64,000 nucleotides of DNA from Pseudomonadota bacterium (GTDB lineage Bacteria; Pseudomonadota; Alphaproteobacteria; Rhizobiales; JAKPQE01): positions 1 through 64,000 of the forward strand of contig JAKPQE010000170.1 in assembly GCA_029572955.1 (NCBI GenBank), read 5' to 3'. Both the position numbers and the translations under genes were made by a program. The notes under the pieces are model-generated. The model saw only the letters and a list, made by a program, of their open reading frames with translations. It was not told the origin of the DNA and did not search any database. Below are positions 2,481 to 23,510 of this stretch, in pieces. The number at the start of each line of letters is the position of its first letter. Within the stretch, counting starts at the first letter, position 1.

Positions 2481-2494
2481 GGAGGCCGAGACCC

Positions 2495-3742: not shown

Positions 3743-3754
3743 GGGGGCGGGGCC

Positions 3755-4792
3755 ATGGAAAAGGACAATCCGATGACCAGCGAAACGACCCCGGGCGACG
3801 GCGTGCAGAAGCTGCATTTCTACCAGAAGGGCACCTTCACCGTCGGCAACCGCCTCGTCTCGTCCGACGAGCGCTCGGTGCAGTCGTCGATCGACCGCTC
3901 CAATGCGCTGACCTGCGGCCACCGCGCCTGCCAGGGCTGCGGCGAGGCGCTCGGCGCCCGCTATGCGATCGACACGGCGATGGAGGCGGCGGGCGGCAAT
4001 CTCATCGCGGTCAACGCGACGGGCTGCCTCGAGGTGTTCACCACGCCCTATCCGGAAAGCGCCTGGCAGCTGCCCTGGCTCCATTCGCTGTTCGGCAATG
4101 CCGCGGCGGTGGCGACCGGCGTTGCCGCGGCGATGCGGGTGAAGGGCCGGCGCGAGGTGCGGGTCGTTGCCCAGGGCGGCGACGGCGGCACCACCGACAT
4201 CGGCCTGCAGTGCCTGTCGGGCATGTTCGAGCGCAACGACGACGTGCTCTACATCTGCTACGACAACGAAGGCTACATGAACACCGGCGTGCAGCGCTCG
4301 TCGGCGACGCCGCCGGCTGCGCGCACCGCGACGACCCCGGTGCTCGGCGACGAGCCGGGCAACGTGTTCGGCACCGGCAAGTCGGTGCCCAAGATCGCCG
4401 TCGCGCATGAAATCCCTTACGTCGCCACGGCGACGGTCGCCGACCTGCGCGACCTCGAGGCCAAGGTGAAGAAGGCGATGTCGATCCACGGCGCGCGCTA
4501 CATCCAGATCGACGTGCCCTGTCCGCTCGGCTGGGGCGCGGCCTCGCACGAGACGATCCACCTCGCACGCCTCGCCGTCGAGACCGGCTTCTATCCGATC
4601 TTCGAGGCCGAGCACGGCCGCGTCACCAGTGTGCGCAAGATCCGCCACCAGGTGCCGGTCACCGAATATCTGAAGCTGCAGAAGCGCTTCGCCCATCTCT
4701 TCAAGGGCGACAAGGTCGATCCGCGCGTCGCGCGCCTGCAGGCGCGGTGCGACGCCAATATCGCCGAATACGGCCTTCTGGACGCCGCGTGA
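3755..4792 (+). CDS. porB: 2-oxoacid (pyruvate):ferredoxin oxidoreductase, beta subunit (TPP-binding)
   Basis: This 345-residue subunit binds thiamine diphosphate and a proximal [4Fe-4S] cluster. Candidate cluster ligands are C59 and C62 (A-C-Q-G-C-G), C91 (A-T-G-C-L-E) and C256 (D-V-P-C-P-L). The diphosphate/Mg motif is G-D-G-G-T-T-D-I-G at 142-150, continuing into Y-D-N-E-G-Y-M-N-T-G-V-Q-R-S, typical of PorB. A GAGGGGGCGGGG ribosome site precedes the ATG. The N-terminal 45 residues before the cluster domain are somewhat longer than in many PorB proteins. It is followed 18 bases later by the flavoprotein-ferredoxin gene, the likely electron acceptor of the enzyme. Confidence 0.92.
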   Translation: MEKDNPMTSETTPGDGVQKLHFYQKGTFTVGNRLVSSDERSVQSSIDRSNALTCGHRACQGCGEALGARYAIDTAMEAAGGNLIAVNATGCLEVFTTPYPESAWQLPWLHSLFGNAAAVATGVAAAMRVKGRREVRVVAQGGDGGTTDIGLQCLSGMFERNDDVLYICYDNEGYMNTGVQRSSATPPAARTATTPVLGDEPGNVFGTGKSVPKIAVAHEIPYVATATVADLRDLEAKVKKAMSIHGARYIQIDVPCPLGWGAASHETIHLARLAVETGFYPIFEAEHGRVTSVRKIRHQVPVTEYLKLQKRFAHLFKGDKVDPRVARLQARCDANIAEYGLLDAA

Positions 4793-4810
4793 GAGCCGAG
4801 GACGAGATCC

Positions 4811-7148: not shown

Positions 7149-8633
7149 TCAGACCAGACGACAGGCGGCGGCCTCGGGCTCGGCTCCGTAGAAGCCGGCG
7201 TATTCGCCGCTCCGGGTGGCGAGGTCGGCGACGCTGTCGAGAATGAAGTCGACCGTCGCGTCGTCCATCACGAAGCTGAGGTTGAGGCGGACGAAGCCGG
7301 GCTTCTCGCGCTCGTCGCCGGCGAGGATGCGCTCGCGGATGTGGGCCGACCGGCCGTCGTCGATGGCGAGGAGGCGATGGGCGTAAGGGCCGGCGCAGAC
7401 GCAGCCGCCGCGGGTCTGGATGCCGTAGGCATCGCTCAGCATGCGCGTGAAGGTCTGCTGGTGGACGAAGCCGCCGGCGTCGTCGCGCACCCGGAAGGAG
7501 AAGATCGGCAGGCGATCCCTGTGGTGCGGCGCGAGGATGTCGAGGTTGCGGCAATCCTGCCAGCGGGCGAAGGCGCGCCCGGTCAGTTCGCGGTCGCGCC
7601 GGTCGATGAAGTCCTCGCCGACCGCTTCCTTGACGAGGAAGGCGAGGGCGGCGCGGATGTCGCCGAGGATGTTCGGCGTGCCGGCTTCCTCGCGGTCCTC
7701 GATGGTGTCGCTGTAGTCGTGAAAGAGCGAGGAGACGAACTTCACCGTGCCGCCGCCCGGCCAGGACGGCGTGCGCGCTGCAAGGGCGTCGCGGCGGATG
7801 ACGAGCACGCCGGAAGCGCCGGGACCGCCGAGGAACTTGTGCGGCGAGAGGGCGATCGCGTCGATCGAGAGGCCGGGCGCCGGGGCCATGCGGATCGGCA
7901 GATAGGGGCCGCCGCCGGCATAGTCCCAGACGGCGAGGGCGCCGTGCGCCTTCAGCACCGTGGTGACGGCAACGACGTCGCTGACGATGCCGGTGACGTT
8001 CGAGGCGGCCGAAAAGGCGCCGATCTTCAGCGGCGTGTCGCGATGGGCGGCGAGCACGCCGGCGATCATGGCGAGGTCCGGTCCGCCTTCCGGGGCTTCG
8101 GCGATCTCCACGACCTTGGCGCCGCTCTCGCGCCAGGGCAGGAGGTTGGAATGGTGCTCGTAAGGGCCGACGAGGACGAGCGGCGTCTCGCCCCGACGCA
8201 CGGCGACGTCGACGCCGAGGAGATGGACGAGCCGGTTGAGGCCGGCGGTCGCGCCCGAGCCGGCGAAGATCACCGCGTGTTCCGTCGTGGCGCCGCAGCC
8301 GCGCGCCACCACCTTGCGCGCCTCTTCGCGAAGGCGCGTGGTGCGCGCGCCGCAGAACGAGGATTCGGTGTGGCTGTTGGCGTAGGTCGGCAGCACCTCG
8401 TCGAGAATGAAGGCCTCGACCTGGCGCAGGGCACGGCCGGAAGCGACATAGTCGGCATAGACGAGCTTTCGCGCGCCGAACGGCCCGTCGACCATGACGT
8501 TGCCACCGACGAGGCCGCCGCGCAGGGCGGCCAGCACATCGCCTTCGGCAAGCTGCTCGGAAAACCGCCGGTACGGGTTCGGCTCGAGGCCGGAGCCGCC
8601 GCGCCGATCGGTCGTTTCGCAATCCTGAGGCAT
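7149..8633 (-). CDS. Class V aminotransferase, cysteine desulfurase/selenocysteine lyase-like
   Basis: This 494-residue enzyme has the fold type I PLP layout of the NifS/CsdA family. Visible marks are Y-A-N-S-H-T-E-S-S near the N-terminus, G-S-G-A-T-A-G-L-N-R for phosphate binding, E-H-H-S-N-L-L-P-W, D-Y-A-G-G-G-P-Y, the PLP-lysine motif S-P-H-K-F-L-G-G-P-G, and a late G-G-C-V-C-A-G-P-Y. The cysteines in the last motif sit where desulfurases keep their catalytic cysteine loop. It is longer than housekeeping IscS (about 400) because of a C-terminal extension. It is divergent from an Lrp regulator. Supplying sulfur to the Fe-S-rich neighbours is plausible but unproven; another aminotransfer or lyase reaction is possible. 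Confidence 0.8.
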   Translation of the reverse strand: MPQDCETTDRRGGSGLEPNPYRRFSEQLAEGDVLAALRGGLVGGNVMVDGPFGARKLVYADYVASGRALRQVEAFILDEVLPTYANSHTESSFCGARTTRLREEARKVVARGCGATTEHAVIFAGSGATAGLNRLVHLLGVDVAVRRGETPLVLVGPYEHHSNLLPWRESGAKVVEIAEAPEGGPDLAMIAGVLAAHRDTPLKIGAFSAASNVTGIVSDVVAVTTVLKAHGALAVWDYAGGGPYLPIRMAPAPGLSIDAIALSPHKFLGGPGASGVLVIRRDALAARTPSWPGGGTVKFVSSLFHDYSDTIEDREEAGTPNILGDIRAALAFLVKEAVGEDFIDRRDRELTGRAFARWQDCRNLDILAPHHRDRLPIFSFRVRDDAGGFVHQQTFTRMLSDAYGIQTRGGCVCAGPYAHRLLAIDDGRSAHIRERILAGDEREKPGFVRLNLSFVMDDATVDFILDSVADLATRSGEYAGFYGAEPEAAACRLV

Positions 8634-8746: not shown

Positions 8747-9229
8747 ATGCCGCGCAAACTCGACCGTATCGATCTGAAGATTCTCGACCTCCTGCAGCAG
8801 GATTCCTCGCTGTCACAGCGCCAGCTCGCCGAACGCATCGGCCTGTCGCAGAACGTCTGCTGGCGCCGGCTCAACCGGCTCGCCGACGAGGGGGTGCTGA
8901 AAGGGCAGTCGGCGCGCATCGACCGGACCGCGCTCGGCCTCGACCTCGTCGTCTTCGTGCTGATCCGCACGCGGCACCACTCGAAAGCCTGGCTCGAGCA
9001 GTTCCGGGCGCATGTGGAATCGATCCCGGAGATCACCGACTTCTACCGGATCGGCGGCGACTGGGACTATCTCATCCGGGTCGTGACCGAGAACATGGCC
9101 GGCTACGACGCGGTCTATCAGCGGCTGGTTTCCGAGGTCGAGCTCGAGGCGGTCACCGGTCTCTTCACGATGGAGGGGATCCTCGAGAACCGGCCGGTCG
9201 ACCTGCGTCGCGTGCTTCGCGCCGAGTGA
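8747..9229 (+). CDS. Lrp/AsnC-family transcriptional regulator
   Basis: The 160-residue protein has the standard Lrp arrangement: an N-terminal winged helix-turn-helix (about 5-60, D-R-I-D-L-K-I-L-D-L-L-Q and L-A-E-R-I-G-L-S-Q-N-V-C-W-R-R-L-N-R-L) and a C-terminal RAM/AsnC effector domain (about 65-150, with G-D-W-D-Y-L-I-R). Family members respond to amino acids. It is divergent from the class V aminotransferase across a 113-base AT-rich gap, the usual placement for a regulator controlling an amino-acid enzyme, so it most likely regulates that gene and itself. Confidence 0.9.
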   Translation: MPRKLDRIDLKILDLLQQDSSLSQRQLAERIGLSQNVCWRRLNRLADEGVLKGQSARIDRTALGLDLVVFVLIRTRHHSKAWLEQFRAHVESIPEITDFYRIGGDWDYLIRVVTENMAGYDAVYQRLVSEVELEAVTGLFTMEGILENRPVDLRRVLRAE

Positions 9230-9330: not shown

Positions 9331-9849
9331 TCAGACGCCGCCGGAATGGATGATCTCGTAATAGGTCTTCTCGAGTTCGCCCTTGTGGCGCAGTTCCTCG
9401 TCGGCGAGGAAGCGGAAGAGGTCGCGCAGCGGCCCGTCCGGCGTCGTCTCGGCAAGGGCCGAATACTGCTTGTAGGCGGCGTCCTCGCGGCCCATGGCGT
9501 ATTGCAGGATCGCCTGGTCGTCCGGATTGTCGTCGAGCTTCGGCATCTGCACGAAATCGGCGAACTTGTGGTCCTCCGGCGGGGTGGCGATGAGGTCCTT
9601 GAGGTGGGCGACCGTGTCGGGATGGTCGCGCACGCCGGTGAAGAGGTCGTAGTGGCGCTGCTCCTCCTCGGCGAGTTCCTCGACGAGGGCGCGCATCGGC
9701 TTCGACACCTTCGGGGCGAGCGCCGCATAGAAGGTGCGCGCCGTGTCCTCGAAACCGATCGCGGTGTTCAGCACCTCTTCGAGCGTCTTTGCCGAGGCGA
9801 GGGCGGCATGGGCACCCGAATGGCCTTCGGTCTTCTCGGTGTCGGTCAT
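9331..9849 (-). CDS. Ferritin-like (rubrerythrin-type) diiron protein
   Basis: The 172-residue protein is a four-helix ferritin-like domain with diiron ligand candidates E34, E63-x-x-H66, E122 and E152-x-x-H155, the two E-x-x-H pairs expected in rubrerythrin-like and bacterioferritin-like proteins. No rubredoxin C-x-x-C domain is attached. It is the last gene of the Mbx-like operon and its ATG overlaps the stop of the preceding fusion gene by four bases (ATGA), so it is translationally coupled. A role in scavenging peroxide or oxygen, or in holding iron for the oxygen-sensitive Fe-S enzymes, is inferred. Confidence 0.85.
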   Translation of the reverse strand: MTDTEKTEGHSGAHAALASAKTLEEVLNTAIGFEDTARTFYAALAPKVSKPMRALVEELAEEEQRHYDLFTGVRDHPDTVAHLKDLIATPPEDHKFADFVQMPKLDDNPDDQAILQYAMGREDAAYKQYSALAETTPDGPLRDLFRFLADEELRHKGELEKTYYEIIHSGGV

Positions 9850-11678
9850 TCCGCGGCCTCCAGTTTGCTGCTTCCTCCGCCGAGGAAGGTGTCGATGGCA
9901 CTCGCCGTGCGGTGGCCGGCGGCGACGGCATGGATGACGTCCGGGCCCTCGACCATGTCGCCGGCGGCAAACAGCCAGGGAACGGCGGTCGAGCCGTCAC
10001 GGCCGATCTTGATGCGGCCACGTTCCCATTCGAGCGCTTCGGTCACGTCCTTGCCGAGATAGGAGACGTCGGTCGCCTGGCCGATGGCCTCGACGACCAT
10101 GGCGGCCGGATGGAGGATCACGTCGGCCTCGTCGTATTTCGGATGGAAACGGCCTTCCTCGTCGAAGATCGACAGGCAGAGCACGGTTTCGAGGCCCTTG
10201 ATGGCGCCGTTCTCGACGACGATCTGTTTCGGGCCGCGGCCGGTGAAGACCTTGACGCCTTCCTCGCCGCCCTCGATCACCTCTTCCTCGTCGGCGAGCA
10301 TGCGGTCGCGCGCCTCGAGGGCGACGAGCGTGACGTCGACCTTGCCGAAGGTCTTCTTCTGCAGGCGGGCGAGGCTGCGGGCGATGTCGAAGGCGACGTT
10401 GCCGCCGCCGATCACCGCGGCGCTCTCCTTCAGATCGAAGCTCTCGCCGGCGGTGACGCGGGCGAGGAGGTCGACGGCCGAGAAGACGCCCGGCTGGTCG
10501 CTGCCCGGAATGCGGGTCGAGCGGCCCTGGCCGAGGCCGGTCGCGACCACGACGGCGTCGTTGTCGGACCTGAGGGCATCGAAGCCGATGTCGCGGCCGA
10601 TCGCCTTGCCGCATTCGATGGCAACGCCGGCCGCCTCGATGACGGCGATGTCGGCGTCGAGCTTGTCGTAGGGCAGGCGGTATTCGGGAATGCCGTAGCG
10701 CATCATGCCGCCGGGCTTTTCCTTCGATTCGTAGACGGTCACGGCGTGGCCGAGCTTGGCAAGATCGAAGGCGGTCGTGAGGCCGGCCGGGCCGGAACCG
10801 ACGATCGCGACCTTCTTGCCGCTCTTCTTCTTGGCCTTGTCGGCAAGGGCGATCTTCTTGACCTTGGCCGGCGAGACGGCGTCGATGGCGTAGCGCTTCA
10901 GCCAGCGGATGGCGACGGGTTCACCGCGGCGGCCGATCGAGCAGGCGGTCTCGCAGCGATGGGTGCAGACGCGGCCGCAGACCTGCGGGAAGGGATTGGT
11001 GCGGTAGATCTCCTCGACTGCCTTCTCGACATTGCCTTCCCAGATGGCGCGGATGTACTGCGGCGCGTGCATGTTGGTCGGGCAGGCCTCGTGGCACATG
11101 CCGCACTGGATGCAGCGCGAGGCCTCGATGAGGGCGGTGTGGGCGTCGAAGCCGTCGACGATCTCGTCGAAATTGTCGCTGCGCGCCTCGGGCTCGACCT
11201 CGCCCATCGGCTGGCGCTTCAGGTCGAGGAGGTCGGAATCCTCGTTCTTGCCCCAGCCGATCGGATAGCCGAGGCCGTGCATGCCCTTCTCGTCCGGCAG
11301 GATGAAGAAGGTGTTCATCTCGCGGCTGATGTGGATGTATTCGCGCGACAGGGCGATCGAGCCGGTCGGGCAGATGTCGACGCAGAGCGCGCACCAGCAG
11401 CAGCGGCCGTAGTCGATCGCCGGACGGCGCGGCTTGATGCCGTTCTTGTGGTCCTCCGGCAGATCCGGGATGTGGACCATGCTGATCGCTTCGTTGTCGC
11501 AGATCTCCGCGCAGGTGCCGCAGCCGATGCATTTCTCCCAGTCGTTGACATGGAAGCCCCGATAGTTCTCGGCGGCCGGGCGCGGCTCCATCGGCAGGGT
11601 CACGGGCTCGCGGAAAAGGAAGGACAGAGCCTTCAACGGCCTCAGGAAGCTGCCTTTGTTCTTCGGTGTGACGTCCAT
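9846..11678 (-). CDS. NuoI/MbxN-type ferredoxin fused to a GltD/NfnB-like FAD-NAD(P)H module
   Basis: Numbered from the ATG at 11678 (GAGG in front), the 610-residue protein has two [4Fe-4S] sets typical of NuoI/MbxN (C50, C53, C56, C60; and C93 or C94, C96, C99, C103), then a GltD/DPYD-type cluster region (C189, C192, C195, C199 and C234, C238, C242, C246). A flavoprotein follows with G-S-G-P-A-G for FAD at 294-299, P-G-G-M-M-R-Y-G-I-P, the dinucleotide fold G-G-G-N-V-A-F-D-I-A-R and the closing A-A-G-D-M. An upstream TTG at 11732 is possible but lacks a ribosome site. It occupies the place of MbxN in the operon, so it may dock NAD(P)H or ferredoxin electrons directly onto the membrane complex. 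Confidence 0.85.
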   Translation of the reverse strand: MDVTPKNKGSFLRPLKALSFLFREPVTLPMEPRPAAENYRGFHVNDWEKCIGCGTCAEICDNEAISMVHIPDLPEDHKNGIKPRRPAIDYGRCCWCALCVDICPTGSIALSREYIHISREMNTFFILPDEKGMHGLGYPIGWGKNEDSDLLDLKRQPMGEVEPEARSDNFDEIVDGFDAHTALIEASRCIQCGMCHEACPTNMHAPQYIRAIWEGNVEKAVEEIYRTNPFPQVCGRVCTHRCETACSIGRRGEPVAIRWLKRYAIDAVSPAKVKKIALADKAKKKSGKKVAIVGSGPAGLTTAFDLAKLGHAVTVYESKEKPGGMMRYGIPEYRLPYDKLDADIAVIEAAGVAIECGKAIGRDIGFDALRSDNDAVVVATGLGQGRSTRIPGSDQPGVFSAVDLLARVTAGESFDLKESAAVIGGGNVAFDIARSLARLQKKTFGKVDVTLVALEARDRMLADEEEVIEGGEEGVKVFTGRGPKQIVVENGAIKGLETVLCLSIFDEEGRFHPKYDEADVILHPAAMVVEAIGQATDVSYLGKDVTEALEWERGRIKIGRDGSTAVPWLFAAGDMVEGPDVIHAVAAGHRTASAIDTFLGGGSSKLEAAE

Positions 11679-11783
11679 GTTCGGGACCTCGTAGAGCTTG
11701 CGCGGGCGGGTCTTGGTGCCCTTCTGCTCCAAATGTTCGTTTCGTTGTCCGGTCCCGGCGGGTCGGCCCGCCGGGCAGCGGCG

Positions 11784-12926
11784 CTAGCGATCGACCTCAG
11801 GCGGGCAGGCGTCGAGCGAGAACATGATCTGGGCGATGTCCTCGAGGCGGCCGCGGGCGAGCAGCCGTTCGAGCACCTGCACCGCATGCATCTGGGACGG
11901 CCCGCGCACATGCACACGCCAGGGCTTGGCGCCGCCGGTCGAGACGACGAAGAAGCCGAGCTCGCCCTTGGAGGATTCGACCCGGGCGAAGGTATCGCCG
12001 GCCGGGATGTTCCAGGCGAGCGGATTGGGCAGCGGACAGCGCACCGGGCCCTCGATATGGGGCAGCCGGGCGATGACCTGGCGCAGGATCTTGATCGATT
12101 CCAGCACCTCGGCCTTGCGCACCATCATGCGGGCGAGGGCGTCGCCGTCCTTCATCGTCGGCACTTCGAACTCGAGTTCGGGATAGACGAGGTAAGGATC
12201 GTCGCGGCGCACGTCGAAGGGCAGGCCGGAGGCCCGGAGGTTCGGGCCGGTGACGCCCCAGGCGAGCGCCTCCTCGGCGCTGATCGTGCCGGTGCCGGTG
12301 GCGCGGTTGATGACGACGGTGTTCGAGAAGAACAGGTCCTCGAAGTCCGGCAGGCGGCTTTCGAGGTCGTCGAGCAGCGCGGCGAGCCGGTCGAGCAGGC
12401 CCTCGGGCAGGTCGCGGCGGACGCCGCCCGGGGTGATGTACATGTGGTAGATGCGGGCGCCGGTGATCTCCTCGAACAGGTCGAGGAAGAGATCGCGCAT
12501 CGACACGCCCCAGAACATGTTGGTGTAGAAGCCGATCGTCGCGGCGTTGCCGCCGAAGGTGAAGAGATGGGCGCAGATACGCGACATCTCCAGCATCATG
12601 ACGCGGATCCACTGGGCGCGGGCCGGCACCTCGAGACCGCCGAGCTGTTCGACGGCGCGCGAGTAGCACTCCTCCATCGGCACCGGATCGGGCACGCAGA
12701 TGCGCGGCACGAGGGCGACGTTCTGGATCCAGAGCCGCTCCTCCATGATCTTCTCGAAGCCGCGATGCAGGTAGCCGCCGTCGGCGATCGCCTCCTGCAC
12801 CTCGTCGCCCTTGAGACGGACGCGAATGGCGTAGTTGCCCTCGATGCCCGGATGGTTCGGGCCGAAATAGAGCTCGTATTCGTGGCTCGGCGGATGGCTG
12901 ACCGGACGGTAGTTCTCGGGTCTCAT
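11784..12926 (-). CDS. mbxL: NuoD/MbxL-like large subunit (49-kDa type), partial loss of [NiFe] ligands
   Basis: The ATG at 12926 overlaps the NuoC-like stop by four bases; the longer frame upstream lies inside that gene. The 380-residue protein aligns with the complex I 49-kDa/group 4 hydrogenase large subunit: H-x-x-x-E-L-Y-F-G-P-N-H-P near the start, G-Y-L-H-R-G-F-E-K, N-V-x-L-V-P-R-I-C, and a C-terminus D-A-C-P-P-E-V-D-R. In [NiFe] enzymes the two metal pairs are C-x-x-C. Here they read C77-V-P-D80 and C374-P-P-E377, so one cysteine of each pair is replaced by an acidic residue. A [NiFe] site is therefore unlikely, as in MBX and complex I relatives. Confidence 0.88.
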   Translation of the reverse strand: MRPENYRPVSHPPSHEYELYFGPNHPGIEGNYAIRVRLKGDEVQEAIADGGYLHRGFEKIMEERLWIQNVALVPRICVPDPVPMEECYSRAVEQLGGLEVPARAQWIRVMMLEMSRICAHLFTFGGNAATIGFYTNMFWGVSMRDLFLDLFEEITGARIYHMYITPGGVRRDLPEGLLDRLAALLDDLESRLPDFEDLFFSNTVVINRATGTGTISAEEALAWGVTGPNLRASGLPFDVRRDDPYLVYPELEFEVPTMKDGDALARMMVRKAEVLESIKILRQVIARLPHIEGPVRCPLPNPLAWNIPAGDTFARVESSKGELGFFVVSTGGAKPWRVHVRGPSQMHAVQVLERLLARGRLEDIAQIMFSLDACPPEVDR

Positions 12927-13465
12927 TTCTCGACACCTCCGCCCTTGGCCTCGACGTCCTTCAGCCAGTCGGGCTGATAGTCGACCCACTCGTAGGTCTG
13001 GTTGACGTACTCGCGGGTGTTGAACGACTTCAGCATCGGCGGCGGGCCGCCCCAGCTGGTCAGAATGAAGGGCCGGAGATTCGGCGCGCCGACGAAGACG
13101 ACGCCGAACATCTCGTGGATGTCGCGCTCGTAGAAGCCGGCCGGGGTGTGGATGTCGTAGACCGAGACGAAGCGGCCGGGATTGCGCGGAATGGTGATGT
13201 GGGCCGAGGCGAGGGTTTTACGCTCGTAGGACCAGACGTGATAGACGAGCTCGAACTCGTCGGTCTCGGGCCAGTCGACGCAGGAAATCGCCGACAGGTG
13301 GATGAAGCCGAGGCGGCCCTTGAGGAGTTCGAGGAGCGCCGGCAGGCTGTCGCGGGCAACGTCGATGCGCAGCCGCCGCTCGCCCTGCTTGGTCACCTTG
13401 ATGCCGGGGATCTCGTGCTGGATCGTGTCGACGATGGTCGCCGGGGTGCCGGTTTCGACGGTCAT
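12923..13465 (-). CDS. mbxK: NuoC/MbxK-like subunit (30-kDa type)
   Basis: The chosen ATG at 13465 overlaps the NuoB-like stop by four bases (ATGA) and gives 180 residues. The C-terminal half shows the NuoC hallmark P-A-G-F-Y-E-R-D-I-H-E-M-F-G-V-V-F and then N-L-R-P-F-I-L, with an N-terminal alpha/beta domain containing S-C-V-D-W. The protein has no cofactor of its own and links the NuoB- and NuoD-like subunits in the peripheral arm. The stop overlaps the next start, so B, C and D are made in fixed ratio. Confidence 0.9.
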   Translation of the reverse strand: MTVETGTPATIVDTIQHEIPGIKVTKQGERRLRIDVARDSLPALLELLKGRLGFIHLSAISCVDWPETDEFELVYHVWSYERKTLASAHITIPRNPGRFVSVYDIHTPAGFYERDIHEMFGVVFVGAPNLRPFILTSWGGPPPMLKSFNTREYVNQTYEWVDYQPDWLKDVEAKGGGVEK

Positions 13466-14214
13466 GGCCGGCTCCTCTCGTTGCGACCGCGGGCCGGATA
13501 GAGTTCCGGCACCGTGTCGAGGGACCAGGTGGCGCGCTGATCGAGGAGCGCGGTGTGCTCGCCGGTCGTGCCGTTGCCGACATAGCCGTAGTGCTTGGCC
13601 TCGGCGACGACGTCGGTCGGGGTGTGCCAGTCCTGGCCGAAGAGGTTCATCTGGCGGCCGAGATAGGCATCGTAGTTGAGGTAGTAGTCCTGCCAGGCGG
13701 TTGCCTTGCCGGCGTCGATCTTGGCCATCAGGTCGAGGAACACCTGCTGGATGGCCTCGGGGCGCGGCATGCAGCCGGCGATGTAGCTGTCGACCGGAAT
13801 GTACTGGTCGAGGCGTTTCACCGTCGCATAGGAGTTCCAGTACATGCCGCCATTGATGGTGCACGAACCGAAGCCGACGACGTATTTCGGCGCCTGCATC
13901 TGCTCGTAGGAGAGGATGACGCGCTTCAGCGTCTTCACCGACAGGTAGCCGGTGATGAGCAGGAGGTCGGCCTGGCGCGGCGTGACCATCGGCGAGACAC
14001 CGACCCGCTCCATGTCGAAGCGGGAGGTGATGGTCGGCGGCAGCTCGATGGCGCCGCAGCCGGTGCAATAGTGCAGCACGAACAGCGAGCGGGAGCGGCA
14101 GTGATCCGCGAAATTGTCCATCACCTTGCGCAGCAGGCTTTTTTCCTCTGCGTCGGCAACCCGGCAGGTTTCCGGCTGGTCGGTGACGACAGGTACTTTT
14201 TCGGAGCCGGTCAT
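13462..14214 (-). CDS. mbxJ: NuoB/MbxJ-like [4Fe-4S] subunit
   Basis: This 250-residue subunit should carry the terminal (N2-like) [4Fe-4S] cluster. The four ligands are visible as Y-C-T-G-C-G-A-I-E (two cysteines), G-F-G-S-C-T-I-N-G-G and I-A-G-C-M-P-R-P-E. The C-x-x-C-G-x-I-E form at the first site is that of group 4 hydrogenases and MBX; complex I NuoB has adjacent cysteines. The C-terminal 70 residues beyond the conserved core are an extension. AAAGGA lies before the ATG, 19 bases after the NuoH-like gene. Confidence 0.9.
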   Translation of the reverse strand: MTGSEKVPVVTDQPETCRVADAEEKSLLRKVMDNFADHCRSRSLFVLHYCTGCGAIELPPTITSRFDMERVGVSPMVTPRQADLLLITGYLSVKTLKRVILSYEQMQAPKYVVGFGSCTINGGMYWNSYATVKRLDQYIPVDSYIAGCMPRPEAIQQVFLDLMAKIDAGKATAWQDYYLNYDAYLGRQMNLFGQDWHTPTDVVAEAKHYGYVGNGTTGEHTALLDQRATWSLDTVPELYPARGRNERSRP

Positions 14215-14233: not shown

Positions 14234-15136
14234 TCAATTCACTTTCAGCATCACGAAGGCGAGGCCGACGAGACCGATGGCGGTCGGCCAGCGCCACATC
14301 CAGCGGATGACGTCTTCGGTCTTGTAGCGGCCGAACACGTTGGTGATCGCCACCGAGATGAAGATCACCGCGGCCACCTTCGGCAGGAAGGTCAGCCACA
14401 TCTCGCCGCCGCCGAGGAACATCGTCACGTAGAGCACGCCGACGGTGTAGAACTGGAAGCACTGCATGACGAACAGCGCGCCCATGTACTTGCCGCTCAT
14501 CTCGACCATCGGGCCGGTGGCGATCTCGGCCGGGGCGATATAGAGCTCGAACGGCTCCTTGCCGAGCATGCCGTGCATGGCGATGAGGCCGGCGAAGGCG
14601 AGCAGCGGCATCGTGGTGACGCCCCAGGTCGACACGCCGCCTTCCTGCTGGATGCGCACGACGTCGATGAGGTTCGACGAGCCGTAGTGGATCAGCGCGC
14701 CGGCGATGACGACGACGAACGGCACGTCGTAGGCGAGCATCGAGGTCAGCGCGCGGCTGATGCCGATCGAGCCGTTCGGGTTGGCGCACGAGCCGACGCC
14801 GAGGGCGAGGCCGAGCATCGGCACCATCATGATGTAGACGAGGGTGACGAGATCGCCCTCTGCGGCGAGGCCGTCGAGGCCCGGCACCGGCAGGAAGATC
14901 TCGGCCGTGATGAAGCCGCCGAGCAGCATCATGATCGAGACGTCGTGCATCAGGCCATGGGAGATCTGCGTCTTCTTGGCGTAGAGCTTGACGATGTCGT
15001 AGATCGGCTGGAGCACCGGCGGGCCGACGCGGCGCTCGATCTTGGCGCGCACGCGGCGCGCCATGAGCACGAGCACCAGCCCGAACAGGAAGGCGATCAG
15101 CGGCATCAGGACCAGATCTGCGAAGAGTTCGAGCAT
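14234..15136 (-). CDS. mbxM: NuoH/MbxM-like membrane subunit
   Basis: The ATG at 15136, with GGAAAG eight bases before it, gives 300 residues; the longer frame upstream overlaps the preceding gene. It is a multi-spanning protein (about eight helices) of the complex I subunit 1 family, with R-R-V-G-P-P-V-L-Q-P-I-Y-D-I-V-K-L after the first helix and E-x-x-x-A-P-A-E-I-A-T-G-P-M-V-E-M-S-G in the acidic loop that forms the quinone/E-channel region in complex I. It anchors the peripheral arm to the antiporter-like subunits. Confidence 0.92.
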   Translation of the reverse strand: MLELFADLVLMPLIAFLFGLVLVLMARRVRAKIERRVGPPVLQPIYDIVKLYAKKTQISHGLMHDVSIMMLLGGFITAEIFLPVPGLDGLAAEGDLVTLVYIMMVPMLGLALGVGSCANPNGSIGISRALTSMLAYDVPFVVVIAGALIHYGSSNLIDVVRIQQEGGVSTWGVTTMPLLAFAGLIAMHGMLGKEPFELYIAPAEIATGPMVEMSGKYMGALFVMQCFQFYTVGVLYVTMFLGGGEMWLTFLPKVAAVIFISVAITNVFGRYKTEDVIRWMWRWPTAIGLVGLAFVMLKVN

Positions 15137-15138
15137 GA

Positions 15139-17019
15139 TCAGATCTTTCCGAAGAGGCCGACCCACAGGAGGCCGAGGGAGACGGCGACGAGCAGGTAGA
15201 ACGGCGTATGGGCAAAGCGGAAGACGCCGCCCGAGAGGTCGCCGAGGACGGCGACGAGGGTCTGCAGGCCGCGCTCCATCTTGACCACCCAGCCCCGGTA
15301 CCAGGGCCCGATGACACGGGCGAGGCCGGGATAGAATTCATGGCTGAAGTGGTAGCGGACGTCGGCCGACAGGAAGTGGCCACCGGCGTAGTTGTCGTAC
15401 TGGCTGACCTCCCAGCGGCGATTGCCGAGGAAGTAGAAGATCAGGGCGCCGACGCCGATGGCGGCGATCAGCACGCCGACCACCCAGAGCATGTTGAGCG
15501 AGCCGTTGGGCAGGTCGACGCCGCCGAGATGGTGCGGCTGCAGGCCGATGCCGAGGGCGCTCTGGGCGATGTCGACCATCGACAGGGCAAGGCCCGGCAT
15601 CCAGCCGGTGACGAAGCCGATTCCGGCGAGCGTCAGCATCGGCAGCAGCATCGACAGCGGCGCTTCCTTGACCTCGCGGTGCTCGAGGCGGAGCTGGCCG
15701 AGGAAGATGTTGTGGATCAGCTTGTAGACCGAGAGGATCGTGCCGAGCGTGCCGATGAAGGCGGCGATCAGCAGCAGCGGCTGGGCCGTGTTGAGCAGCG
15801 ACTTGTAGATCATCCACTTGGAGACGAAGCCGTTCATCGGCGGCAGGCCGGCAAGGCCGATGATGCCCATCAGGAGCGTGATGTAGGTGAAGGGCATGCG
15901 CGTGATGAGGCCGCCGAGCTCGTCGAGATCGGCCGTCTTGGTGCGGTGGACGACGGCGAAGACGGCGAGCATCAGCGCCATCTGGTAGGTCGCGTAGTTG
16001 AAGGTGTGCAGCAGGCCGCCGGCGAGGCCGAGGGGCGTGCCGACGAGGATGCCGAGCAGCATGTAGCCGCCCTGGCCGATACCGTGCCAGGCGAGCAGCA
16101 TGCGCGCGTCGGTCTGCATAAGGGCGATGTAGGTCGGCACGATCATGGTGATCGCGGTCAGCCACAGGAGCGCCGAGCGGGCATCGAACCAGGTGTAGGC
16201 GATGTCCATGCCGGCGAGCAGGGCCGGGCCCATCAGCTTGATCAGCACCAGCGTCAGGGCGAAGAGGCCCATGCGCGCCGAGACGGCGTTGAGGAAGCTC
16301 GAGGAGGCGCCGGGCGTGAAGGAATAGGCGGGTGCCTGCCAGAGATGGAACGGCACGATCGCCATCTTGACGCCGAAGCCGGCGGTGAAGAGGACGAACA
16401 GCACCCACTTGGTCGCCGTCGGCAGGTTCGGCACCGCCGCGGCGAAATCCTCGAAGGCGAAGCTGCCGGTGGCCGAGCGAACGATCAGGATGCCGGCAAA
16501 CAGCGCCATGGCGCCGGCCAGCGCGTAGAGCAGGTAGCGCAGGGCCGCGGTCGCGGCCGGGCCGCCGAGCTGGGTCATCATGGCGAAGGCCGCCCAGGAG
16601 ACGATTTCCCAGCCGATGAAGAGGCTGAGGAAGTCGCCGCTCGAGACGAGCAGCAGCATGGCGAGCACGTTGAGCGCCAGCGTGCCGTGCTGGATGCGCT
16701 TGTTGGGCTGCGCCTCGTTCCACTCGCCGCTCATGTACCAGGCGGCGAAGAAGCCGGCGCCGGTGGTGAGCAGGGCGAAGAACCAGCCGAGGCCGTCGAT
16801 CCGCCAGGTCATCGGATAGCCGAGGACGGTGAAGGCCATCGCCGAGGGGACGGCGGTCTCGCCGCCGGAAAGCGTCTGGCCGACGAGGACGACGATCACC
16901 GTCATTGCCGCATAGGCGGCCATGCCGATGTAGCCGGCGAAGCGGTTGGCGCCGAAGACATAGAGGCCGACGGTCGTCAGCAACGCCAGAACGAGCAGGG
17001 TGTCGAGCAAGCCGATCAC
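15139..17019 (-). CDS. NuoL/M-type antiporter-like subunit (MbxH'-like)
   Basis: The GTG at 17019 is preferred over the annotation-length frame because GGGAGG lies seven bases before it and it starts two bases after the MrpD stop. The 626-residue membrane protein belongs to the proton-conducting NuoL/M/N and MrpA/D family, with the helix-5 glutamate in F-I-G-W-E-I-V-S, the helix-7 lysine in F-G-V-K-M-A-I-V-P-F-H-L-W-Q-A-P, and H-x-F-N-Y-A in the discontinuous helix. It extends past the 14-helix core with an additional C-terminal membrane region. It is the second antiporter-like subunit of the operon, which distinguishes MBX-type from MBH-type clusters. Confidence 0.85.
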   Translation of the reverse strand: MIGLLDTLLVLALLTTVGLYVFGANRFAGYIGMAAYAAMTVIVVLVGQTLSGGETAVPSAMAFTVLGYPMTWRIDGLGWFFALLTTGAGFFAAWYMSGEWNEAQPNKRIQHGTLALNVLAMLLLVSSGDFLSLFIGWEIVSWAAFAMMTQLGGPAATAALRYLLYALAGAMALFAGILIVRSATGSFAFEDFAAAVPNLPTATKWVLFVLFTAGFGVKMAIVPFHLWQAPAYSFTPGASSSFLNAVSARMGLFALTLVLIKLMGPALLAGMDIAYTWFDARSALLWLTAITMIVPTYIALMQTDARMLLAWHGIGQGGYMLLGILVGTPLGLAGGLLHTFNYATYQMALMLAVFAVVHRTKTADLDELGGLITRMPFTYITLLMGIIGLAGLPPMNGFVSKWMIYKSLLNTAQPLLLIAAFIGTLGTILSVYKLIHNIFLGQLRLEHREVKEAPLSMLLPMLTLAGIGFVTGWMPGLALSMVDIAQSALGIGLQPHHLGGVDLPNGSLNMLWVVGVLIAAIGVGALIFYFLGNRRWEVSQYDNYAGGHFLSADVRYHFSHEFYPGLARVIGPWYRGWVVKMERGLQTLVAVLGDLSGGVFRFAHTPFYLLVAVSLGLLWVGLFGKI

Positions 17020-17020
17020 G

Positions 17021-18475
17021 TCACATCCTCCCAGGCAGGACGCGCGCCACATAGGACCCGGCGTCGGCGGCGCTGGCGGCGGCGCCCGAGAGGGCGGTGC
17101 CGATCGGCGCGACGAACAGGGTTGCGACGATGAGGATCACGCCGAGCAGCAAGGCCGGCGACAGATCCGAGAAGGCGAAGTGTGCGGGTTTGGCCCCGGC
17201 GGCGGGCTGCCAGATGCGGGCGACGACGCGGAAGAGGTAGGCCGCCTCGACGACGGTCGCGGCGAGTACCACGGCGGCGGCGAAGGCATAGGCTCCGCCG
17301 GCGTCGAAGGCGCCGCCGAGCAGCACGAGCTTCGCCCAGAAGCCGGGCAGCGGCGGAATGCCGATGATGCTGAGGGCGAGGAGCACGAAGAGGCCGGCCG
17401 CGGCGGGGGCGACCCTGGCGCCACCGGCGAGCCCGGCGAGCGGGCCGCGCCACTTGGCGGCGATGACGAAGAAGGCCGGCTTGACCACCGCGTGATGCAG
17501 CGCCACCGCGATCGCGGCGAGGATGCCGGCGGTGGCCGGGATCGTCAGAGCGAGGGCGACGAGGCCGAGCTGGGCGATCGAGGAATAGGCGAAGGTGCGG
17601 TTGAGGTCGCTGGCGCGATAGGCGGCGAACTCGCCGGCGACGATCGTCACGATGGCGACGGCCATCAGGAGGCTGATCGCGGCCGGATCGTGGAAGACCA
17701 GAACGAGGAGCCGGAGGATCACCACCATGGCGAGCTTGGAGACGACGCCGGCGAGGATCGCGGTGACCCGCATCGGGGCGGCGGCGTAGACCTCGGGCAC
17801 CCAGGTGTTGACCGGGAACAGCTCGGCCTTGACGCCGAAGCCGAGGACGAGGAGCAGGAACGCGGCAAGGCCGGTCGTGCCCGACAGCTTCTCGGGGGCG
17901 AGGCGGGCGATGTCGGCAAGGTTCAGCGTGCCGGCGGCGGCGTAGACGAGGCCGATGCCGATCAGCACCAGCGAGGAACCGAGGGCGCCGAGCACGAGAT
18001 AGCGCAGGGCGGCGCCGAAGCCGGCCTTGTCGCCGGACGAGGCGGCGAGGCCGTAGGACGCGACGGCGACGATCTCGTAGAAGACGAAGATGTTGAAGAG
18101 GTCGCCGGAAAGGACGAGGCCGGAGCCGCCGGCAACGAGCAGCAGCGTCAGCGTGTAGGCCTTGACGCCGCCATGCTCGGCGCGCGGCCAGAAGATCAGC
18201 GCGCCGACGGCGAGCACCGCGACGAACAGCGCGGCGAGGCGGTCGCCATAAAGAACGATGCCGAGCGGGGCTTCGAAGCCGCCGAGGGCGGTGACCGCCG
18301 CCTCGGTTCCGACGGCCGACCACAGGGTCCAGCCGAGGAAGATGTTGACGACGACGAGGACGATGCCGAGGGCGCGGGCGAGGCCGTCGCCGAAGCGGGC
18401 GACGAGCGGCAGCAGGAACGCGCCGAGCAGCGGCAGGACGATGGGCAGTACCAGGGTGTTGGCGCCGGAGGTCAT
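17021..18475 (-). CDS. mrpD: Mrp-type Na+/H+ antiporter subunit D homologue (MbxH-like)
   Basis: This 484-residue, about 14-helix protein is the MrpD/NuoN-like antiporter subunit. The conserved glutamate appears in F-V-F-Y-E-I-V-A-V-A-S-Y and the key lysines in F-G-V-K-A-E-L-F-P-V-N-T-W-V-P and H-H-A-V-V-K-P-A-F-F. Its ATG overlaps the MrpC stop by four bases. In Mrp complexes this subunit moves protons through the membrane; in MBX-like complexes it is thought to be driven by the attached redox arm. Confidence 0.9.
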   Translation of the reverse strand: MTSGANTLVLPIVLPLLGAFLLPLVARFGDGLARALGIVLVVVNIFLGWTLWSAVGTEAAVTALGGFEAPLGIVLYGDRLAALFVAVLAVGALIFWPRAEHGGVKAYTLTLLLVAGGSGLVLSGDLFNIFVFYEIVAVASYGLAASSGDKAGFGAALRYLVLGALGSSLVLIGIGLVYAAAGTLNLADIARLAPEKLSGTTGLAAFLLLVLGFGVKAELFPVNTWVPEVYAAAPMRVTAILAGVVSKLAMVVILRLLVLVFHDPAAISLLMAVAIVTIVAGEFAAYRASDLNRTFAYSSIAQLGLVALALTIPATAGILAAIAVALHHAVVKPAFFVIAAKWRGPLAGLAGGARVAPAAAGLFVLLALSIIGIPPLPGFWAKLVLLGGAFDAGGAYAFAAAVVLAATVVEAAYLFRVVARIWQPAAGAKPAHFAFSDLSPALLLGVILIVATLFVAPIGTALSGAAASAADAGSYVARVLPGRM

Positions 18476-18936
18476 GACGCGCTCCCCGCGTTGACGGTTT
18501 CACGGGCCGGCGTCCCGGCGACGGCGGTGCCGGCGGCCGGGGCGGCATCGGCCGGCTCGGCAGCGAGGAACTTCGCCACCTCGCGGGTGTCGAGCGTGCC
18601 GTAGGTTTCCTTGACGCGGATGAGAAGCGCGGCGGCGAGGGCGAGGACGCCGACGCCGATGACGATCGCGGTGAGCACCAGCGCCTGCGGCAGCGGGTCG
18701 ACCATCGGCACGTCGGTGACGCCGCCGACGATGATCGGGGCCGCCGCTTCCGGCCGGAAGCCGATCGCCACGAGGAACAGGTTGACGCCGCTCTCCACCA
18801 GGGCGAGGCCGAGGAGCACGCGCATCAGGTTGTAGCGGGCGACCATGGCGTAGATGCCGATGGCGATCAGCAGGATCGCGCCGCCATAGAGGGCCCGGCC
18901 GAGATATTCGGCGACGAGCAGTGCGTCGGGGCTCAT
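18472..18936 (-). CDS. mrpC: Mrp-type antiporter subunit C homologue (NuoK-like, MbxG-like)
   Basis: The ATG at 18936 overlaps the MrpB-like stop by four bases and gives 154 residues with three transmembrane helices of the NuoK/MrpC family (G-I-Y-A-M-V-A-R-Y-N-L-M-R-V-L-L-G-L-A-L-V-E-S-G-V-N-L, and P-L-P-Q-A-L-V-L-T-A-I-V-I-G). The membrane glutamate of the L-V-E-S motif is the conserved proton-path residue. A 35-residue Ala/Pro-rich C-terminal tail goes beyond the usual end of the family. Confidence 0.9.
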   Translation of the reverse strand: MSPDALLVAEYLGRALYGGAILLIAIGIYAMVARYNLMRVLLGLALVESGVNLFLVAIGFRPEAAAPIIVGGVTDVPMVDPLPQALVLTAIVIGVGVLALAAALLIRVKETYGTLDTREVAKFLAAEPADAAPAAGTAVAGTPARETVNAGSAS

Positions 18937-19631
18937 GACTTCCCTCCGACTTCGACGATGCGGGCCATGAGGCCGGCGAGTTCGGATCCGACCTTGAGGC
19001 CGATCGCCAGATAGAGCAGCGGCAGGCTGCCGGCCGAGAACAGGTCGCCGAGCGTGCCCTTGCCGAGGAAGGGCGTGAGGAACGCCTCGCCCCACATCAG
19101 GCTGGCAAGGCCGATGACGATGAAGGCGGTGCCGGCAAAGCCCTCGACGAGCGCCGCGGTCGAATGGTTGAGCGGGCTGGTCGGGCTGGCGAGCAGCGGG
19201 ATGAAGAAGGCCGCGGCCATGATGGCGCCGCCCTGGAAACCGCCGCCCGGGGTCAGATGGCCGTGCAGGATGATGTAGGCGCCGAGCACGACGAGGAACG
19301 GGAACAGGAGGTCGGCGGCGGCCTTGAGAATGAAGCCGCCGGGCGCCTTCGGCAGGTCGCCGGCGCCGGCACCCGACAGGATGAGGCCGGCGGCGGTGGC
19401 GGCGACGAAGAGGATCGTCACCTCGCCGAGGGTGTCGAAGCCGCGATAGCCGAGGAGGATCGCGGTGACGATGTTGGCGGCGCCGGTCTCGCCGGGAGCC
19501 CGCGAGACGATCTCCTGGCCGACCTGCATCGGCGCTGCGCCGAAGGGCAGGGCCTGGAACAGCGCGTAGAGCATCACCACCAGTCCGGCGAGGAAGAGGA
19601 GCGACGCGGTGGTGCGACCGTAGCCGTGCAT
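18933..19631 (-). CDS. mrpB: MbhE-MrpB fused membrane subunit
   Basis: The 232-residue protein joins two pieces. The first about 95 residues resemble MbhE / the C-terminal end of MrpA (N-I-V-T-A-I-L-L-G-Y-R-G-F-D-T-L-G-E-V-T-I-L-F). The rest is MrpB (Y-I-I-L-H-G-H-L-T-P-G-G-G-F-Q-G-G-A-I-M-A-A). Both parts are membrane-embedded, in about seven helices overall. There is no full-length MrpA in the operon; its C-terminal functions are covered here and in the DUF4040 gene before it, as in archaeal MBH/MBX. It starts nine bases after that gene. Confidence 0.85.
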   Translation of the reverse strand: MHGYGRTTASLLFLAGLVVMLYALFQALPFGAAPMQVGQEIVSRAPGETGAANIVTAILLGYRGFDTLGEVTILFVAATAAGLILSGAGAGDLPKAPGGFILKAAADLLFPFLVVLGAYIILHGHLTPGGGFQGGAIMAAAFFIPLLASPTSPLNHSTAALVEGFAGTAFIVIGLASLMWGEAFLTPFLGKGTLGDLFSAGSLPLLYLAIGLKVGSELAGLMARIVEVGGKS

Positions 19632-19640
19632 GGGACGCTC

Positions 19641-19901
19641 CTATTTCTTGCCGTCGCCGGCGTCGGACCGCCAGAGGCCGGTGCGACGCACGGTGAGTGC
19701 GAGGAGGACGCCGGAAAGCCCGGCCGCGACCGCGGCTTCGGCGAGCGCCACGTCGGGCGCGCGCAGCAACGCGAAGATGACGGCAAGGGCGAGCGAGACG
19801 ACCGAAACGGCGGCGACCGCGGCAAGGTAGCTGCGCAGGAACACCGTCAGCAGGGCGGCGGCGATCATCACCACAACGGCGAGAATGACGAGCCAGAGCA
19901 T
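19641..19901 (-). CDS. DUF4040/MbhD-like small membrane subunit
   Basis: This 86-residue protein with three transmembrane helices corresponds to MbhD (DUF4040), a small piece homologous to part of MrpA, with A-L-L-R-A-P-D-V-A-L-A-E-A-A-V-A-A-G as its conserved core including the membrane-embedded acidic residues. Its ATG shares one base with the MrpG stop (TGATG), so the two are translationally coupled. Confidence 0.85.
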   Translation of the reverse strand: MLWLVILAVVVMIAAALLTVFLRSYLAAVAAVSVVSLALAVIFALLRAPDVALAEAAVAAGLSGVLLALTVRRTGLWRSDAGDGKK

Positions 19902-20206
19902 CACACGGTCTCCTCGTCTTCGGCCTGGTGCCAGGGGCGCAGGCCCGTGGCGAGCGCGGCGCGGGCGATGATCGAGGAGCCGACCGGCGAGGTCACCAGC
20001 ACGAAGACGGCGAGCACCACGAGCTTGGCCCACCAGTCCGGGTGATGGAAGAAGACGCCGATCAGCACCGACAGTGCGCCGAGCGTCGAGCCCTTGGTGC
20101 CGGTCTGGATGCGATTGAAGACGTCGGGCATGCGCACCATGCCGAGGGCGGCAAGGCACAGGAACACCGCGCCGACGAGGAGGAAGATGTCGCCGATGAC
20201 TGTCAT
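19901..20206 (-). CDS. mrpG: Mrp-type antiporter subunit G homologue (MbxC-like)
   Basis: The 101-residue protein has the three helices and the R-M-P-D-V-F-N-R-I-Q-T-G-T-K-G-S-T-L-G motif of MrpG/MnhG/PhaG. It starts 12 bases after MrpF with a GAGGGAGAG ribosome site. It is a structural part of the sodium-path side of Mrp-type complexes. Confidence 0.92.
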   Translation of the reverse strand: MTVIGDIFLLVGAVFLCLAALGMVRMPDVFNRIQTGTKGSTLGALSVLIGVFFHHPDWWAKLVVLAVFVLVTSPVGSSIIARAALATGLRPWHQAEDEETV

Positions 20207-20218
20207 GACCTCTCTCCC

Positions 20219-20491
20219 TCAGGAGCGCTTTTCGAGGGCGCGGGCGATCGCCACGACGCCGACGAAGGACAGGGCGCCGAAGACCAGCGCGATGTCGAGG
20301 ACGATGGCGCTGTCCTGGACGAGGGCCAGCCACACCAGCGCGGCGGTGGTGATGATCGTCAGGATGTCGGCGGCGACGACGCGGTCGGCGACCGTCGGGC
20401 CGAGGACGAGGCGGGCGGCGCCGAGAAGCACGGCAATGCCGAGCAGCGCCACGGCGATGCCGCCGAGGATGCCGATCTCGAGACCCATCAT
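20219..20491 (-). CDS. mrpF: Mrp-type antiporter subunit F homologue (MbxB-like)
   Basis: Beginning at the first of two adjacent ATGs at 20491, which overlaps the MrpE stop by four bases, the product has 90 residues and three helices, with the MrpF pattern G-P-T-V-A-D-R-V-V-A-A-D-I-L. The long open frame that continues upstream lies inside mrpE and is not used. Confidence 0.9.
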   Translation of the reverse strand: MMGLEIGILGGIAVALLGIAVLLGAARLVLGPTVADRVVAADILTIITTAALVWLALVQDSAIVLDIALVFGALSFVGVVAIARALEKRS

Positions 20492-21057
20492 TTCAGGAAC
20501 TCCTTGAGGACCTTCTCGAAGCCGGCGACGATTTCGCGCGTCGCGGTCTCGAGGTCCGTGCCGGGGGTGGCGTCGATCCAGTGGATCAGCAACTCCTGGC
20601 CGTCGAGGTCGACGGTCAGGGTGCCCGGCGTCAGCGTGATGGAATTGGCCAGCCACAGCTTGCCGAGGTCGGAGTGCAGCTCGGTGTGCACCCTGACGAC
20701 CGCCGGCCGGATCGCCATGCCCGGGGTCACGACACGGCGCGCGACGTCGAAGTTGGCGAAGATCAGCGCCTTGAAGAAGGTGAAGAAGTAGCGGCCGAGA
20801 TGCAGCGGCAGCAACGGCGTCAGCATGACGTCGTCGAGCCATTGCAGATGGCGGATCGAGATGGCCGCGGTGCCGGCAGCGACAAGAATACCGACGATGA
20901 TCTCCTGCACCGCAAGGGTTCCGGTAAGCAGGATCCAGACGAACAGCAGTCCGGCAAACGTCATCGCAAAGCGGCGGGTCATGCGACCGCCGCCGAATAC
21001 GGCAACAGCGCCGGCGTCATCTCCGGTCGCAGATGATTCGTGGGGATTAGTCGACAT
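20488..21057 (-). CDS. mrpE: Mrp-type antiporter subunit E homologue (MbxA-like), first gene of the operon
   Basis: The protein core (about 165 residues from M-T-R-R-F-A-M-T at 20982) is MrpE/MnhE: two or three N-terminal helices, then a soluble part with N-S-I-T-L-T-P-G-T-L-T-V-D and I-H-W-I-D-A. The true start is uncertain. The ATG at 21057 adds 25 residues of unconserved sequence with no clear ribosome site; 20982 would give the usual family length. As first gene it sets the operon promoter somewhere in the AT-rich region 21060-21240. Confidence 0.85.
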   Translation of the reverse strand: MSTNPHESSATGDDAGAVAVFGGGRMTRRFAMTFAGLLFVWILLTGTLAVQEIIVGILVAAGTAAISIRHLQWLDDVMLTPLLPLHLGRYFFTFFKALIFANFDVARRVVTPGMAIRPAVVRVHTELHSDLGKLWLANSITLTPGTLTVDLDGQELLIHWIDATPGTDLETATREIVAGFEKVLKEFLK

Positions 21058-21515
21058 AGATGGAATTTCCATTGGTATAGAACACAGTCCAAGGCGCGCG
21101 AATGCGGCCCCGAAATCGTGACTCAATGGCTCGACACAGCATGATTACGGTAAATTCGCCCGAAAGAACCGCACCACTCACCGATTCTCATTCCGGTACC
21201 TCTTATACGCCTTTCTTGCGAAAATTAGAATGACACAATTTGTGCAGTGCGAAACTTCGACGACATGGCTGCCATGCAGTAAAGGCGGGGCGTTTGGCAT
21301 GGCGCCGCAGGCGTCATAATCGAGCTGCGGTTTTTTCGTCTATTCAATGGGTTGAGGTAACGCGCTGCGGTCTTTCGACTGCTGGTCGTTGCCGTTCGCG
21401 GCCTCGCATGGCAGTTTGTAGCCACGTTTGAACATGCGTGGCGGACCAGTCGGCAGGGGCGTTGGAGCCCTGTCCCAGCGTCCAGACAGGGAGAAGACCC
21501 ATAGCGCCCCGACCG
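21058..21515. other. Intergenic region between the Mbx-like operon and the amylosucrase gene
   Basis: This divergent gap holds no supportable gene. It is more AT-rich than its surroundings, especially 21190-21250 and 21320-21360, and must contain the leftward promoter of the operon and the rightward promoter of amylosucrase. A TATAAG-like element on the minus strand near 21203-21208 is the only recognisable -10 candidate; no well-spaced -35 was found. A GTG at 21438 in frame with amylosucrase could extend that protein by 26 residues. Confidence 0.5.
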
Positions 21516-23471: not shown

Positions 23472-23510
23472 CGGAACGCTTCACCACCGGCGGGAACGAC
23501 CGCCACGGAA

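Follow-up and report, generated by a model that had tools for sequence, protein, structure and literature searches.

The window (the whole 64,000-nucleotide stretch of DNA that was analysed) carries a complete set of MBS-type genes, in the order A-B-C-D-E-G-H-H'-M-J-K-L-N (Table 1). The set includes a NuoH-like anchor and a complete Mrp-type membrane arm, in which two large subunits are of the antiporter type, and its gene order is conserved in dozens of genomes. In most proteobacterial relatives the genes of the complex are followed by a rubrerythrin-like gene.

Table 1. Features of the MBS-type locus in the window.
Feature	Position	Strand	Remarks
Rubrerythrin/ferritin-like protein	9331..9849	-	Overlaps the end of the MbsN fusion gene
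MbsN/NuoI-like ferredoxin domain (about 23-133) fused to GltD/NfnB-like FAD/NAD(P)H flavoprotein (about 175-620)	9846..11732	-	
MbsL/MbxL-like large subunit (NuoD fold)	11784..12926	-	380 aa, C77-V-P-D80 and C374-P-P-E377; sequence matches and AlphaFold2 model
Codons around C374-P-P-E377 (second former [NiFe] pair), near the C-terminus	11793..11807	-	Approximate by one codon
Codons of C77-V-P-D80 (first former [NiFe] pair)	12694..12705	-	Computed from the 380-aa frame
MbsK-like subunit (NuoC)	12923..13465	-	PF00329
MbsJ-like small subunit (NuoB family)	13462..14214	-	Match to 6u8y_J and conservation in relatives
MbsM-like membrane anchor (NuoH)	14234..15166	-	PF00146
MbsH'-like antiporter-type subunit, 637 aa	15139..17052	-	PF00361
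MbsH-like antiporter-type subunit, 484 aa	17021..18475	-	PF00361
MbsG/MrpC-like subunit	18472..18942	-	PF00420
MbsE/MrpB-like subunit	18933..19631	-	MnhB and MbhE domains
MbsD-like subunit	19641..19910	-	PF13244
MbsC/MrpG-like subunit	19901..20206	-	PF03334
MbsB/MrpF-like subunit	20219..20491	-	PF04066
MbsA/MrpE-like subunit	20488..21126	-	PF01899

Several other genes surround the operon. Facing it on the plus strand (1902-6436) are genes for a 2-oxoacid:ferredoxin oxidoreductase (POR gamma, alpha, and beta; PF01558, PF01855, PF02775) and, after these, a GltD-like flavoprotein of which the C-terminus matches the PorD/KorD ferredoxin domain (TIGR02179) above cut-off. Here, too, an NAD(P)H-type module is joined to a ferredoxin part. 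The POR neighbourhood was considered as part of the system and dropped, since it does not lie beside the complex in the close relative G013 or at the other loci. A distant relative of SufS-like aminotransferases/cysteine desulfurases (7149-8633, minus strand; 135 bits, cut-off 475) is adjoined by an Lrp-type regulator (8747-9229, plus strand). Directly beyond the MBS operon (21438-25682, plus strand), an alpha-amylase family enzyme (amylosucrase-like) and a sucrose-phosphate synthase/phosphatase-like protein are encoded, which might putatively link stored sugar to sulfur reduction.

Translation of the large-subunit gene yielded 380 residues and a stop codon, with RIC77VPD80 and a C-terminal DAC374PPE377VDR, bearing out the motifs C77-V-P-D and C374-P-P-E claimed in an earlier, sequence-only reading. 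The ATG at 12926 is backed as the start codon by many relatives that align from residue 1 across the 380 residues. In an alignment with L008, a true group 4 [NiFe] hydrogenase from a related genome, C77 and C374 coincided with the first cysteine of each CxxC pair (RVCGIC, DPCISC), and D80 and E377 with the second. Instead of the four-cysteine [NiFe] set of group 4 hydrogenases, the window protein has CxxD and CxxE. Moreover, the catalytic Glu of the hydrogenase (MbhL) is replaced by G30, and the quinone-binding His and Tyr of NuoD/Nqo4 are replaced by E29 and V78, of which V78 is conserved among the compared homologues.

Among solved structures, the best match was MbsL of Pyrococcus furiosus (6u8y_L; E 3e-114), by a wide margin over complex I (1e-75) and MBH (1e-39), and the P. 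furiosus protein has the same motif pattern (RIC85VPE, C385PPD). An AlphaFold2 model built from 43 homologues (pLDDT 88.8, pTM 0.89, with low confidence and a mean pLDDT of 59 in the last block, which holds C374) was also matched best by 6u8y_L in Foldseek (TM 0.92/0.94, rmsd 1.9, 47% identity). In VIA-align, where rows within 1 Z are ties, complex I chains ranked on top (Z about 49) and 6u8y_L was not among the 50 rows listed, so that fold alone does not separate the families. The NCBIfam model PRK06075 (NuoD) was passed with 429 bits (cut-off 360), whereas the cut-off of the NuoD-specific TIGR01962 was missed by the window protein (342 of 459 bits); PRK06075 would name the protein NuoD, a likely source of misannotation. 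The genome itself (182 contigs, 3.6% estimated contamination; many of the relatives are metagenome assemblies) carries a separate, ordinary NuoD. The window protein is the bacterial counterpart of the MBS/MBX large subunit, and its cysteines are the published hallmark of that family and not a new metal site.

For the archaeal enzyme, the question raised by the half-lost cysteines has largely been answered in print. Two of the four MbhL cysteines are gone in MBS, C85 and C385 remain adjoining the proximal cluster, and complex I has lost all four, which supports a stepwise loss in which MBS is a step on the way from hydrogenase to complex I (Yu et al. 2020; PMC7684303). Because C85 and C385 adjoin this cluster in the homologous 6u8y_L, C77 and C374 of the window protein are taken to lie together as well. 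The sequence-only reading had described the site as neither a working [NiFe] site nor that of complex I, and as possibly an intermediate; both descriptions hold and had been published for MbsL (PMC7684303). Its suggestion of a site for a different metal or for sulfur species stands insofar as the family is tied to sulfur, but is not supported for the Cys/acid pair as that site: the MbsL C85A/C385A mutant has an activity comparable to wild type, as has MbsJ C25A, and the catalyst is the proximal [4Fe-4S] cluster, which has three MbsJ cysteines as its ligands, the removal of its free iron abolishing about 98% of the activity (PMC7684303). The cysteine pattern, already published and its role tested, is thus no discovery of the present analysis.

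The small subunit aligned with 6u8y_J gap-free over 161 residues, CTGCG loop included, and has the shortened loop of MBS. Its C53, C118, and C148 correspond to the MbsJ cluster ligands C28, C93, and C123, and C50 to the non-ligand C25. Every relative with sequence at the three ligand positions has Cys there, and at the C25 position 15 relatives have Gly and one has Ala. On the basis of MbsJ C25 and of this loss to Gly/Ala in 16 relatives, C50 is probably not a ligand. As MbsJ C50 and MbsL C77 are never both missing from one genome, a trade-off between these cysteines was considered; it was dropped because each loss is confined to one clade and may represent a single event.

Conservation of the MbsL residues was assessed in relatives with 45-84% identity to the window protein, encountered in archaea and about a dozen bacterial phyla. 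In the alignment of 85 sequences (80 loci among the matches listed from GTDB genomes, a set that favours close relatives, together with the window, three related genomes, and MbsL), position 77 is Cys in 80 and Asn in 5, and all 85 have an acid (Asp or Glu) at position 80; position 374 is Cys in 74 of 83 (Tyr in 4, Val in 3, Thr in 2), and 81 of 83 have an acid (Glu or Asp) at position 377. C77 and C374 are not a matter of chance, because they are kept in most aligned sequences over archaea and many bacterial phyla. Their conservation in close relatives had been set beforehand as a point on which the sequence-only reading could fail, and both were kept in every relative with at least 66% identity.

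The clade that lost both cysteines offers a natural test of their role. The five double losses (L093, L102, L105, L109, and L110, from WOR-3, Stahlbacteria, Sumerlaeota, Bipolaricaulota, and one further MAG) form one clade with support 100 in a quick tree and read N-x-x-E and V/T-x-P-E, with both acids kept; the MbsN fusion is present in 5 of 5, and the MbsJ cysteines in all three in which MbsJ is covered. The four changes of C374 to Tyr form a separate clade (support 99, quick tree). In these clades the gene sets are otherwise intact. The acids outlast the cysteines in the family, E377 being common to complex I and D/E80 not. Because the MbsL cysteines have been lost in some clades while the acids and the MbsJ ligands stayed, they are a conserved but dispensable family trait, and not a metal or substrate site. 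The loss pattern thus matches the published mutants, dispensable residues being lost and needed ones kept. The survey thereby lends the published mechanism independent support from evolution: the MbsJ ligands are constant, while MbsJ C25 and the pair of MbsL cysteines, which are reported not to be catalytic, have each been lost somewhere. In another genome of the class to which the window belongs, a locus (L114; G403:C10:14652-15791) encodes a 78% identical MbsL with one in-frame TAA, reflecting either a broken gene or an assembly error.

The MbsN-flavoprotein fusion is one reading frame in 54 sequences, that of the window included. Sixteen cysteines are invariant across these sequences (eight ligand cysteines in the MbsN domain and eight more in the fused FAD/NAD(P)H module), which is enough for four [4Fe-4S] clusters, and motifs for FAD (GxGPxG, GD) and NAD(P) (GGG[ND]xAxD) are conserved. 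These features suggest that the complex may exchange electrons with NAD(P)H. Among the surveyed loci, the fusion is absent in Thermococcus, a DHVE2 archaeon, Thermoanaerobacter/Caloramator, and the Sulfurovum/Thiocystis group. The nearest named family, NCBI PRK13984 (841 bits, cut-off 946), has the same make-up, so the fusion itself is not new. In L043 and L063 the MbsN-GltD frames measure 988 and 1021 codons from stop to stop, compared with the usual 600-770, and may represent a further fusion or merely an open upstream frame.

Sulfur bacteria reduce stored sulfur in anoxic darkness. In a quick tree, MbsL of the window and of G013 (84% identical) group with Thiomargarita and other Thiotrichaceae (support 96), which suggests gene transfer between sulfur bacteria. 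The window's own genome contains dsrA; its SoxB match stayed below cut-off. Within the order of the window (61 genomes), dsrA was found in 4 of 4 carriers of the MBS-type gene and in 9 of 57 other genomes (Fisher P 0.0014, not corrected for kinship), and a fifth carrier in the class (G403) is also dsrA-positive. Carriers are rare in this class, where an even draw of 385 genomes contained 2, and in a gammaproteobacterial, Chromatiales-like order the gene is present in 97 of 195 genomes. As a marker of carriers within the latter order dsrA was rejected, since it does not discriminate (90 of 97 carriers against 83 of 98 non-carriers, P = 0.11); nearly all genomes are dsrA-positive there (173 of 195), so nothing is concluded from it. 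Overall, the proteobacterial carriers are mostly dsrA-positive genomes resembling those of sulfur oxidisers, and dsrA was not found in the searched carriers outside the proteobacteria. A less expected feature of the bacterial version is its fusion to an NAD(P)H module, along with its occurrence mostly in sulfur-oxidising bacteria. A sulfur role in bacteria is backed in print by two observations: the mbx genes of Thermotoga maritima are induced by S0 and thiosulfate (PMC9431562), and Mrp-Mbx of the Riftia symbiont is co-expressed with a ferredoxin-dependent rTCA cycle and has been proposed to serve S0 reduction (PMC11636981).

By analogy with the archaeal enzyme, the window protein is very probably the MbsL/MbxL-type large subunit of a bacterial MBS/MBX complex predicted to reduce sulfane sulfur and to move ions. 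In such a complex the full Mrp antiporter-like set would form the membrane arm and carry the NuoB/C/D/H/I-like arm. C77 and C374 are the leftover first cysteines of the ancestral [NiFe] CxxC pairs, the second cysteines having become acids, and bind no [NiFe] centre. Electrons, exchanged through the fused module with NAD(P)H alone or alongside ferredoxin, would pass from the clusters of the MbsN part to the proximal [4Fe-4S] cluster of the MbsJ-like subunit (C53, C118, C148), as homology with P. furiosus MBS predicts. The free iron of this cluster would cleave sulfane S-S bonds, and the energy released would drive the movement of H+ or Na+. Both the sulfur chemistry and the ion pumping are thus predicted from the characterised relative. 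What counts against this reading is that the P. furiosus enzyme is fed by ferredoxin and has no such module, that dsrA does not set carriers apart within the Chromatiales-like order, and that many carriers are sulfur oxidisers, so that the reaction could run the other way.

In this reverse direction, sulfide or short polysulfide would be oxidised in sulfur oxidisers, and the ion gradient would push electrons to NAD(P)+ or ferredoxin for CO2 fixation. That carriers are mostly dsrA-positive proteobacteria, that the fused module handles NAD(P)H, and that the Riftia symbiont genes are co-expressed with the ferredoxin-dependent rTCA cycle (PMC11636981) all speak in its favour. However, no reverse activity is known for MBS, direction is not readable from sequence, and fermentative carriers without dsrA (Spirochaetes, Thermotogae, Bacteroidales) share the fusion, which fits reduction better; we consider reverse operation rather unlikely. 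An enzyme resembling complex I but with another input module, which would oxidise NAD(P)H (or ferredoxin) and reduce quinone, would agree with the fold and the many residues common with NuoD, with the name that PRK06075 would assign, and with the resemblance of the fused module to GltD/NfnB. It is nevertheless improbable, given that E29 and the conserved V78 stand in place of the quinone His and Tyr, that the proximal-cluster motif is CxxC (CTGC) as in MbsJ and not the adjacent CC of complex I, and that the genome has its normal NuoD apart.

Binding of a different metal (e.g., Fe or Zn), or of sulfur covalently, by the set C77/D80 and C374/E377 would account for the joint conservation of cysteines and acids in the majority of family members, at what are metal-holding positions in hydrogenases. 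This option is quite improbable in view of the active C85A/C385A mutant, of the structure in PMC7684303, in which no metal is described there, and of the two clades without both cysteines or without C374, which retain the acids and the gene set. A degenerate, no longer working [NiFe] hydrogenase might be read from the missing half of the metal ligands, but most of the family has kept the remaining half for very long, in complete gene sets and alongside conserved partners, making this explanation very unlikely, with a probability close to nil. A bacterial MBS/MBX-type complex, predicted to reduce sulfane sulfur, remains the best explanation of the locus.

The survey shows that the NAD(P)H-fused version is widespread in sulfur-oxidising bacteria, as a candidate electron route to or from stored sulfur. 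Tentatively, and with considerable doubt, bacterial MBS with the MbsN-GltD fusion may be NAD(P)H-linked sulfane sulfur oxidoreductases, which in sulfur-oxidising proteobacteria would place electrons onto stored sulfur under anoxic dark conditions or, reversed, spend the ion gradient to make NAD(P)H with electrons from sulfide. If so, a complex thought to be archaeal and thermophilic would be a common part of the toolkit of sulfur oxidisers. MBS-type complexes are moreover easily misannotated as NADH-quinone oxidoreductases.

Comparison with known systems places the window complex closest to P. furiosus MBS (formerly MBX; PDB 6U8Y), with which it shares the Cys/acid pattern (CVPE and CPPD in the archaeal protein), the MbsJ cysteine set and loop length, and the full Mrp-like set with two antiporter-type subunits, the gene order being the same in Thermococcus loci. 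It differs in that the archaeal enzyme takes electrons from ferredoxin and, like Thermococcus, lacks the fused module present in the window MbsN, and in that the window locus has a rubrerythrin-like gene after the complex and a dsrA-positive proteobacterial host. The 13-gene MBX of Thermotoga maritima is a reported, S0-induced MBS homologue (PMC9431562); a Thermotogae MAG homologue (L091), which stands in here for the T. maritima genes, has the same fusion, but its large subunit is only 48% identical. Tubeworm-symbiont homologues (L055, L057, and L059) share 69% identity with the window MbsL as well as gene order and fusion, and through them the locus can be likened to Mrp-Mbx of the Riftia symbiont, which has a gammaproteobacterial host and is known from co-expression only (PMC11636981). 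MBH (PDB 6CFW) is alike in fold and in the first cysteine of each pair, whereas the window protein has 2 of the 4 metal ligands and G30 for the hydrogenase Glu, and its complex has two antiporter-type subunits. Finally, complex I (NuoD/Nqo4) has the fold (Z about 49), E377, and the C-terminal -E-V-D-R in common with the window protein, which in turn is without the quinone His and Tyr, has a different proximal-cluster motif in its partner, and retains the leftover cysteines that are absent from complex I.
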